A DNA stretch of 32,188 nucleotides, from IMG/VR virus record IMGVR_UViG_3300044950_000123, positions 1-32,188 of that record. One strand, 5' to 3'. The position numbers and the translations under genes are program-made. The stretch comes from a virus. Within the stretch, counting starts at the first letter, position 1. Every line of letters starts with the position of its first letter. Below are positions 7,712 through 25,713 of the stretch, in pieces. Under the pieces are notes generated by a model. It did not search any database. It was not told where the DNA came from and was given only the letters and a program-made list of their open reading frames with translations.

Positions 7712-8179
7712 TTAACGCCAGCCTTTTGATGAGTCTTTTGTCTGTTGGTGTAATGGTGCTGCTCCTTGTTCAGTTGCTAACCACTTGCTCACAACTCGCT
7801 TTGCATAACTAGGCGATGTGTTCAATTGGCCTGCAATTTCGTTGACAGACAATCCCTTTTTATGTAATTGGATAATTCCAAGTGCCATACCTTTGAAGGT
7901 GACATTCTTATCCCTTACAACAACAGCATCTCTTTCGGTTGGCGTTGAGCCACCCCAAATGCCGTGAATTATCTGTTTTTCTAGTGCGTACTCCAAACAC
8001 TCCTTTTCGTGAATACAACTTGCGCATATTGCTTTAAGTTGGTGCAGTCTTTCTGCCTCTTGTGTGCGGTTATCAGGAAAGAATAAATCCTTATCCTCAA
8101 TCTCTGCACACTTGGCTTCAACAAATCGTGGTAGATCAACAAAGAAATCAAATGTGTTCAATGCTTTTCTGCTAACCAT
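7712..8179 (-). CDS. whiB: WhiB-family regulator with HTH tail, 155 aa
   Basis: An actinobacteria-specific Fe-S transcription factor. C24, C52, C55 and C61 are arranged as C-x27-C-x2-C-x5-C, the WhiB cluster motif, and GIWGG at 73-77 is the diagnostic turn. WhiB proteins bind the primary sigma factor and tune its promoters. Unusually, residues about 100-134 (GIIQLHKKGLSVNEIAGQ, then TSPSYAKRVVSKWL) look like an additional HTH domain; family members are usually shorter with a basic tail. The ATG at 8179 overlaps the nuclease stop by 22 nt; a TTG at 8164 (TTGA overlap) is an alternative. Phage WhiB proteins such as TM4 WhiBTM4 interfere with host WhiB2. Confidence 0.88.
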   Translation of the reverse strand: MVSRKALNTFDFFVDLPRFVEAKCAEIEDKDLFFPDNRTQEAERLHQLKAICASCIHEKECLEYALEKQIIHGIWGGSTPTERDAVVVRDKNVTFKGMALGIIQLHKKGLSVNEIAGQLNTSPSYAKRVVSKWLATEQGAAPLHQQTKDSSKGWR

Positions 8180-9033: not shown

Positions 9034-9582
9034 CTAAAGGCGCTGAATTTCTATCTGAAAAGGTGGGGCGGTGTTGATGTCATATTTGCTGGCAATTTCT
9101 AGCGCTTCAAGTATTTGTGCCTGCGCCCATTGCGGTTGGGCAAGGTTGGGCAGTTGCCCCGCCAATGCGCCTAGCGCGTAGGCAGAGCCACTGCCGACCC
9201 CATAGAGTCCATCGGCAGATTGACTAATGCTTAGCTCATCGCCAATTTCAAAGACATTGCCAGCAAATGCCAGCAAGAATGAGTAACTGGCACCTTCTTT
9301 AGCGTAGTCGTAGCCATTTGCCTTAAAAATAGCAATAATGCTTGGGATGATCTTTCTGCCCATAAATTTAACAGGGTCGGTGCCATCGTAGGCTGGCGGT
9401 TTCCAATTAAAGGCAAGCAAATCCCCTGGTCTTACATCCCCTGCAACGCCTAGCAGGTATTTGTTCAGCTTTACAATCTTGGGAATTGACGGCGAGACGA
9501 TGCGTTTATCGCCGTCAGTGATCTGAGAATCTGCCCCTAGAATGGCAAAATCAGGCCCCTGAAAGGCTAGGAGAGTGGTCAT
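9034..9582 (-). CDS. Proteasome beta/HslV-like Ntn hydrolase, 182 aa
   Basis: Looks like a 20S-proteasome beta-type or HslV-type N-terminal-nucleophile hydrolase. After Met removal the protein starts TTLLAF, so Thr1 is the nucleophile without a propeptide. Catalytic positions follow with a one-residue offset: D17 in GADSQIT, K34 in PKIVKL, S130 in GVGSGSAYALGAL, D167 in KYDIN and T170. LLGVAGD matches the strand before the conserved turn. Family lengths are 170-230 aa, so it is complete. The start at 9582 is chosen from this alignment; the frame upstream to 9630 is not homologous. There is no Shine-Dalgarno, but TACACT lies 7 nt upstream, suggesting a leaderless transcript. No ATPase partner is encoded nearby. 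Confidence 0.8.
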   Translation of the reverse strand: MTTLLAFQGPDFAILGADSQITDGDKRIVSPSIPKIVKLNKYLLGVAGDVRPGDLLAFNWKPPAYDGTDPVKFMGRKIIPSIIAIFKANGYDYAKEGASYSFLLAFAGNVFEIGDELSISQSADGLYGVGSGSAYALGALAGQLPNLAQPQWAQAQILEALEIASKYDINTAPPFQIEIQRL

Positions 9583-9589
9583 AGGGGTA

Positions 9590-9595
9590 AGTGTA
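9590..9595 (-). promoter_or_regulatory. -10 element for leaderless transcript
   Basis: TACACT on the minus strand ends 7 nt before the ATG at 9582, which is where a -10 box sits if transcription starts at the A of the start codon. Leaderless genes are common in actinobacteria. The -35 zone is not a consensus hexamer but is occupied by the tandem TTTCCACGCC boxes, so an activator or repressor is likely involved. Confidence 0.5.
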
Positions 9596-9600
9596 GGGCA

Positions 9601-9659
9601 AGGCGTGGAAAGGCGTGGAAACCCTAGCAATTCCCCAATTTCTTCGAGTTTCCACGCCT
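9601..9659. repeat. Operator-like repeats in divergent control region
   Basis: AGGCGTGGAA occurs twice in tandem (9601-9610, 9611-9620), and the complement TTTCCACGCCT follows at 9649-9659, giving 11-bp arms with AGGCGTGGAAA at 9611-9621. Further CACGCC cores occur on the plus strand at 9674 and 9709. The boxes overlap the promoter region of the proteasome-like gene and approach the rightward promoter, the arrangement expected of an early genetic switch. Confidence 0.65.
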
Positions 9660-9732
9660 AGATTTGAGCCTAACACGCCCACAAACCGTTATCAAATTGT
9701 TACCAAAACACGCCACTTTGGGCTTGCGCTTG

Positions 9733-9740
9733 TATATACA
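9733..9740 (+). promoter_or_regulatory. Weak candidate -10 for rightward operon
   Basis: TATATACA (9733-9740) matches TATAAT-like -10 sequences and lies about 55 nt upstream of the first rightward gene. A matching -35 hexamer at 17 nt is not evident (the bases there are near CACGCCACT). Direction and use are inferred from the need for a promoter in the divergent gap 9583-9793. Confidence 0.3.
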
Positions 9741-9793
9741 GGGGCAGTATCTTTTACTTATTGGGGAACGGCCCCTACGGAACGGATAACAAA

Positions 9794-9946
9794 ATGCCAA
9801 CAACACAAGAGCTAGTAAGCAACCTAATGATGAAGTACGCAGAATTTTATGCACGCGCACTTGAAATGGGTTTTTCATCAGACACTTCACACTTTATTGC
9901 AGCAAGAATGATTGAAGAAGGATTAAACGGAAAGGTGGCCGCATAA
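9794..9946 (+). CDS. Small helical protein, 50 aa
   Basis: First gene of the rightward operon. MPTTQELVSNLMMKYAEFYA, then MGFSSDTSHFIAARMIEEGL: a soluble, all-helical protein with no known family. The start at 9794 is preceded by GGAACGGAT; the upstream ATG at 9761 adds an unrelated segment. Its stop overlaps the next start as TAATG. It could bind DNA or a host protein; unknown. Confidence 0.65.
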   Translation: MPTTQELVSNLMMKYAEFYARALEMGFSSDTSHFIAARMIEEGLNGKVAA

Positions 9947-10246: not shown

Positions 10247-10410
10247 TGATTACAAAGCGTGGTAAGCAAGTACGAGCAATAGCAATTGCAGTTGGTTTAT
10301 TTGTTGTATTGCAGGTTGCTGCAAACCTTTGGTGGGTTGGCATTGATGCCCCTAGTGCTGAGTTTCTTGGCTGGTGTTGGGGTTCAATGACTGAGTGCGT
10401 GGTTCTATGA
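10246..10410 (+). CDS. Small membrane protein, 54 aa
   Basis: MITKRGKQVR is a basic cytoplasmic N-terminus, followed by a hydrophobic helix (AIAIAVGLFVVLQVAANLWW) and an extracytoplasmic tail with two cysteines (GWCWG, TEC). The pattern fits an N-in single-pass protein, and signal-peptide cleavage is possible. Start and stop overlap the neighbours by 1 and 4 nt. Function unknown; superinfection exclusion would be one possibility for an early membrane protein. Confidence 0.65.
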   Translation: MITKRGKQVRAIAIAVGLFVVLQVAANLWWVGIDAPSAEFLGWCWGSMTECVVL

Positions 10411-10532
10411 CACCACATAGGTCAATCCGCGTGGCCACCGACCTTTGGCAATCGGTACAAGCCAAAGCAAAAGAACAAGGCACAACCGTTAGCGCAGTCA
10501 TACACAAGGCATTGCGCGATTACATCAAGTAA
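10407..10532 (+). CDS. Ribbon-helix-helix (CopG-like) regulator, 41 aa
   Basis: RSIRVATDLWQSVQAKAKE then GTTVSAVIHKALRDYIK is a classic MetJ/Arc/CopG fold: one beta strand with alternating basic residues and two helices with the GTT turn. These dimers repress promoters by inserting the strand in the major groove of short repeats. It ends the rightward operon and is the best candidate to bind the CACGCC boxes at 9601-9714, possibly autoregulating. Start overlaps the membrane gene by 4 nt (ATGA); no RBS of its own is needed. Confidence 0.8.
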   Translation: MTPHRSIRVATDLWQSVQAKAKEQGTTVSAVIHKALRDYIK

Positions 10533-10542
10533 TTGGAAAACG

Positions 10543-10578
10543 AAAAACCCCCCGCAGGAACGGCTGCAGGGGGTTTTT
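10543..10578. terminator. Bidirectional intrinsic terminator
   Basis: AAAAACCCCCCGCAG (left) pairs with CTGCAGGGGGTTTTT (right) around a short loop GAACGG, with a T-run in both directions. It sits exactly between the convergent ends of the rightward RHH gene (10532) and the leftward DUF6378-like gene (10605), so it serves both operons. Confidence 0.9.
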
Positions 10579-25689: not shown

Positions 25690-25713
25690 AGATTCCCCCG
25701 AATCATTTAAGAA

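Follow-up and report, generated by a model that had tools for sequence, protein, structure and literature searches.

IMGVR_UViG_3300044950_000123 is a 32188-base virus contig, and the window analysed here is that whole record. Its terminase is nearest to that of Pontimonas phage phiPsal1 (48.7%) and it carries WhiB, primase/polymerase, exonuclease and structural genes, suggesting that the host is likely to be actinobacterial. A host search found no peptidase relative among genome contigs, and a loop search with the same aim also returned none.

Positions 9580-9794 would form an early-promoter region with three promoters, P1, P2 and P3. P3 is predicted to drive a small rightward operon and P2 to yield a leaderless mRNA for a peptidase gene. 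P1 would point the same way as P2, with its expected start about 80 nt upstream of that of P2. Around 9.6 kb the skew shows no turn and DnaA boxes are not in excess, giving no sign of a replication origin. The features of the locus are as follows.

7712-8179: WhiB-like gene
9034-9582, minus strand: HslV/proteasome-like peptidase gene, start codon 9582-9580, protein beginning MTT
9590-9595, minus strand: putative P2 -10 element TACACT, with 7 nt between it and the ATG at 9582-9580
9601-9610, plus strand: distal tandem copy of AGGCGTGGAA, reading TTCCACGCCT on the minus strand; poorly conserved
9611-9659, minus strand: predicted RNA hairpin, 5' arm 9659-9646, loop 9645-9625 and 3' arm 9624-9611, with an inner mini-stem AAUU-GGGG-AAUU
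9631-9638, minus strand: loop core UUGGGGAA
9667-9675, minus strand: putative P1 TGT extension and -10 element TAGGCT, overlapping the CACGCC core at 9674-9679
9690-9695, minus strand: putative P1 -35 element TTGATA, followed by a spacer of 17
9724-9753, plus strand: putative rightward promoter P3, TTGCGC, spacer of 18 and TATCTT (9748-9753), assigned by eye from aligned relatives
9762-9777, plus strand: predicted second 5' hairpin, in the rightward leader, UGGGG-AACGGC-CCCUA
10407-10532, plus strand: RHH (Arc-like) gene, last in the small rightward operon (PHROG Arc-like repressor, E 5e-10)
10548-10573, both strands: bidirectional intrinsic terminator dividing the late leftward unit from the small rightward unit

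The peptidase gene and its predicted leaderless promoter

The peptidase gene matches Pfam Proteasome (E 3.8e-6) and the PHROG 'peptidase HslV family' (E 3.5e-24), and its MTT and further positions are invariant in 9/9 aligned relatives. Close relatives of the peptidase lie on 70 contigs, 69 of which include DNA upstream of the gene; together with the window these give 70 regions. All 70 have a TAnnnT element, mostly TACACT, 6 nt (49 regions) or 7 nt (21 regions) ahead of the start codon. A more distant group of peptidases (46-50% identical) provided 54 regions scored for the element, 4 of 58 loci having been excluded where the reported start does not resemble the true one, and 53 of the 54 keep it at 5-8 nt. 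The first-pass annotation had proposed a leaderless promoter for the proteasome-like gene, with TACACT exactly 7 nt before the ATG. That spacing is confirmed, and because TAnnnT stands at 6-7 nt in every one of the close regions, the predicted leaderless promoter P2 is well supported.

The start of the peptidase is also pinned by its invariant Met-Thr-Thr, which we take to be the proteasome-type nucleophile, a catalytic-type motif that has to be N-terminal. A short leader peptide or a longer peptidase was rejected, because the distance from hairpin to ATG ranges from 14 to 43 nt, reading frames are not kept and the MTT must be N-terminal. In one relative (L080, 2636-3199) the N-terminal part of the peptidase differs (MTTIIACQTPAGVVLGAD) and the P1-hairpin-P2 region is the same, an arrangement common to L081 and L098.

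A covarying RNA hairpin tied to the putative promoter P1

Exact copies of AGGCGTGGAA occur at 9601-9610 and 9611-9620 on the plus strand and at 9650-9659 on the minus strand, and nowhere else in the record. Matches with up to 2 mismatches are not in excess (26 against 24.9 expected), so that it is the clustering and inverted pairing of the boxes that are unusual. The inverted pair has perfect 12-nt arms, which fold on the minus strand as AGGCGUGGAAACUC-loop-GGGUUUCCACGCCU, with an RNA folding z of -4.09.

In relatives both arms of this A-type hairpin change together. When 47 distinct A-type rows are aligned, standard pairs make up 99.6% of the paired cells and four pairs are changed on both sides; the covariation score was reached by 0/500 shuffles, and sliding lowers pairing to 36-59%. 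The loop core is invariant (GGGGAA in all 47 rows), whereas distal stem pairs vary, and one relative (L047) has a compensated change in the inner stem, AUUU-GGGG-AAAU. This covariation shows the inverted pair to be a conserved hairpin at the level of predicted RNA structure. Among 33 distinct A-type hairpins, included when at least 12/14 positions pair, the 462 cells comprise 414 Watson-Crick, 47 G.U and 1 A.C; the G.U and A.C cells share ancestry and their ratio is descriptive. A C-to-T substitution within a G-C pair appears as G.U when one strand is read and as A.C when the opposite one is, and the asymmetry therefore marks the minus strand as the one predicted to fold.

Searches of 10 whole records found no further copies of the hairpin, weak second matches being that hairpin read on the other strand, with the sole exception of one weak hit in one record. 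The window has no Rfam 15 match at gathering scores, and 9560-9800 has none at E<=10; the literature searches turned up no paper whose title or abstract dealt with a P1-linked hairpin element. A pseudoknot between the loop GGGG and a CCC beside P2 was rejected by eye, because L047 and L057 have the loop without the CCC and L052, L054 and L066 have the CCC without the hairpin.

The hairpin has a fixed relation to P1, which in the window reads TTGATA-17-TAGGCT (9695-9667) and is the single P1-like match there. Its general pattern is TTGATA (rarely TTGGTA), a spacer of 17 or 18 and TAnnnT; 47 of 49 distinct hairpins have TTGATA with 17, one has TTGGTA with 17 and one TTGATA with 18. A search with P1 alone retrieved 68 stretches, all 68 with a hairpin, and a search with the loop alone retrieved 57, of which 56 have P1 and the exception (L038) reads TTCATA. 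The stem starts 4-9 nt past the -10 element in 49/49 distinct hairpins, and in 45 of them at 5-7 nt, the distance at which transcription would be expected to begin. In L035, L043 and L044 a minisatellite parts the hairpin from P2, and P1 and hairpin remain together. These inserts and the coincidence of the reciprocal searches indicate that hairpin and P1 are one unit. All 71 distinct cores precede an MTT-starting peptidase gene, the residue after MTT being I/L/V in 59 (by script) and A in the other 12 (by eye). We infer that P1 is active and that its transcript starts at the hairpin base.

B-type hairpins were found in 16/68 stretches from the P1 search, giving 11 distinct rows. Their stems (GCCACCU, CCCAGCC and CCCGCCUA, among others) are unrelated to those of A-type, and the loop holds GGGG in 11/11 rows and GGGGA in 10. 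Here 97.4% of cells are paired and five pairs are doubly changed in the 11 rows. Further variants with longer, compensating stems occur in L195 and L201. No GGGG hairpin is present in seven divergent regions (L026, L027, L028, L052, L154, L194 and L067), and in four others (L054, L192, L193 and L066) it is replaced by an inverted DnaA-box-like pair, TTATCCACA-ACC-TGTGGATAA, slightly altered in L066. These 11 regions suggest that the GGGG hairpin is dispensable in the wider family.

A G/C-rich minisatellite lies between hairpin and P2 in L035, L043, L044, L086 and L124, and in L043 its length differs from that in L035 and L044. Many members of the distant group (L225-L282) have a TATTGT-like -10 element, 11-13 nt on GTGTCG..CGACACGCCG, and then the leaderless TAnnnT, an arrangement that possibly parallels P1-hairpin-P2.

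The putative sister promoter P3, whose spacer contains the palindrome TGTATATACA (9731-9740), also has a hairpin near its predicted start, followed by the start codon. The AACGG-loop hairpin was collected in 67 distinct rows (selected on the AACGG motif) with many different, covarying stems. As the P3 leader thus has a varying hairpin too, start-near hairpins appear to mark both early promoters. The rightward leader, followed to 9796, has a second GAACGGAT directly before the start codon, and the leader of L061 and L063 is without either AACGG copy. The first gene of the rightward operon (9794-9946) is swapped among relatives, with a similar one in 3/64; the leader stays.

Possible roles of the hairpin and of the boxes

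In the three-promoter model, the first ~50 nt of the P1 transcript would fold into a stable hairpin that displays UUGGGGAA in its loop. The most likely reading, which we hold to be somewhat probable, is that the hairpin works in cis within the 5' leader of P1 transcripts, and that these continue into the leftward early (replication) unit. The peptidase would be made mainly from the P2 mRNA, the likelier message because P1 RNA has no Shine-Dalgarno at the ATG and carries a stable hairpin 14-43 nt upstream of it. Terminator scores bear on this reading; a value above zero denotes an intrinsic terminator, that is, a stable hairpin followed by a U-run. All A-type (46/46) and B-type (13/13) hairpins score below zero, and the only positive scores in the window are those of the operon-end terminator at 10548-10573 (+22.5 for one strand, +34.8 for the other). 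The negative scores make read-through into the leftward early unit likelier, least so for B-type hairpins, whose UUUUC tails come near to terminators (best score -0.7) and suggest that some B-type P1 RNAs may end at the hairpin.

A tentative and rather unlikely alternative is that P1 drives a small-RNA gene whose ~50-nt product consists of the hairpin only, ended by termination or processing and acting in trans through its GGGGAA loop. Such an RNA would begin at the stem base, B-type hairpins share the A-tract/U-tract design of the phage's own terminator, and an invariant loop core above varying distal stem pairs would suit a molecule of this kind; however, 0/59 hairpins have a positive terminator score. 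A loop acting in trans could compete for a factor that binds ribosome-binding sites, because GGGGGA is the ribosome-binding motif of the phage family: in 19 sequences, some overlapping, 58/108 GGGGGA sites stand 2-9 nt ahead of an ATG that opens a reading frame of 60 aa or more. The loop UUGGGGAA resembles this G-run motif and, judged by eye, lacks a start codon at the customary distance of 4-6 nt. Against action in trans, 10 whole records searched with 1 mismatch allowed over 11 nt show no consistent complementary site, and only 2 ribosome-binding sites in the window form a hairpin with GGGG in the loop and a stem of 5 bp. It is very unlikely, on our estimate, that the ~50-nt P1 hairpin represents a new phage RNA family in which the UUGGGGAA loop would be a trans decoy for a G-run-RBS factor or the ribosome, shifting the balance between leaderless and leadered translation.

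An antisense target in the phage was sought with CAATTCCCCAA at 1 mismatch in 10 whole records and rejected, no shared, rightly oriented site being found beyond the hairpin. GGGG(G)A precedes many minus-strand genes (for example at 25699, 22868, 19209, 17070, 11976, 10910, 6124 and 5533), and at 25699 and 11976 it is set in GAUUC-GGGG-GAAUC hairpins.

We regard it as improbable that the hairpin is a promoter-proximal terminator, either insulating P2 from P1 or gating the leftward unit through an antiterminator in the style of lambda-type late leaders. The position of the hairpin, right after a promoter and ahead of an early unit, and the U-runs of B-type would fit such a role, but the terminator scores are negative, the U-run is just 2 long in short A-type forms and termination alone would not need a conserved 20-21-nt loop. 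We found no intrinsic terminator within the leftward early unit, which leaves an antitermination role without a visible target.

The remaining reading is that the boxes are DNA operators, CACGCC/GGCGTG at P2 being bound by a repressor or activator and the inverted copies forming a protein-binding dyad. The first-pass annotation had described tandem boxes, an inverted copy and two extra CACGCC cores in the divergent region, and all are present (the extra cores at 9674-9679 and 9709-9714). It had placed the boxes in the -35 zone, which holds for the proximal copy, whose CACGCC core begins at -35 from the ATG, but not for the distal copy, whose core begins at -25. In relatives, where it had proposed to look for the boxes, the inverted pair is kept as hairpin arms (GGCGTG in the 5' arm in 46 and the proximal CACGCC in 41 of 47 A-type rows); by contrast, only 13 rows retain CACGCC at the distal copy and 2 the 9709 core. 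The core in the P1 spacer is kept in 34.

Its suggestion that a factor such as the RHH protein or WhiB could regulate the gene through the boxes is mostly unsupported, given an inverted pair that covaries as an RNA hairpin and poorly kept distal and 9709 copies. An RHH gene lies within 1.5 kb in 52/64 regions, in 41/49 with A-type boxes versus 11/15 without (split by hand). Because RHH presence does not track the boxes, an RHH operator is rejected as the main reading.

For operators in general, the GGCGTG/CACGCC cores of the arms barely vary, and CACGCC is found in the 16 nt preceding the P2 -10 element in 14/29 distinct A-type and 4/13 'other' regions and in 29/32 distinct distant-group regions, mostly 8-10 nt before it. 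In B-type regions, however, this sequence is lost (0/10 distinct regions) and other complementary stems are gained, the G.U/A.C asymmetry points to RNA, and neither the distal copy nor the 9709 core is conserved. On this balance DNA operators seem quite unlikely, and the AGGCGTGGAA boxes are probably mainly hairpin arms plus one local duplication. A separate role of CACGCC in promoter DNA, at about -25, may nevertheless exist, because the A-type stem base GGCGUG/CACGCC hardly varies, as pure structure would not demand, and the distant group keeps CACGCC there. In that group it belongs to an inverted repeat, GTGTCG...CGACAC, and inspection by eye shows no covariation between the arms.

Known systems and what the element means

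Short structured RNAs right after a phage promoter are known from lambda-type leaders, with their promoter-proximal terminators, and from small phage leader RNAs. The P1 hairpin is likewise placed after a promoter; unlike those terminators, no hairpin here scores as one. CsrA-type proteins bind RNAs with GGA loops, and the P1 hairpin resembles these in a loop predicted to expose GGGGA, similar to the ribosome-binding sites of the same genome. It differs in having one loop only, and no CsrA-like gene was identified.

In HK022, put RNAs of ~70 nt with two stem-loops lie on both early transcripts, putL just downstream of PL (PMC9378689). The present phages would be alike in carrying a structured RNA at the start of an early transcript, and on both early transcripts. 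They differ from the put RNAs in that the two-stem-loop anatomy was not found, a single predicted ~50-nt hairpin being present, and in that the loops differ between left (GGGGA) and right (AACGG). Put RNAs suppress terminators downstream of them in cis, and no terminator to be overcome was found within the leftward early unit here. For Mycobacterium smegmatis, 24% of transcripts are reported as leaderless, with leaderless transcripts from 1,099 genes, 155 of which are in addition transcribed from a separate promoter as leadered mRNAs (PMC6448022). As at actinobacterial leaderless promoters, TAnnnT at P2 stands a few nt ahead of a start codon that is the predicted transcription start; P2 itself is a prediction from conservation, in a phage with a likely actinobacterial host.

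What began as a guess at an operator becomes a testable RNA element common to many phages of environmental metagenomes, probably actinobacterial. Hairpins near both divergent early starts would provide two defined RNAs with conserved loops, and at the P1/P2 pair a single gene would naturally be transcribed in both leadered and leaderless form.
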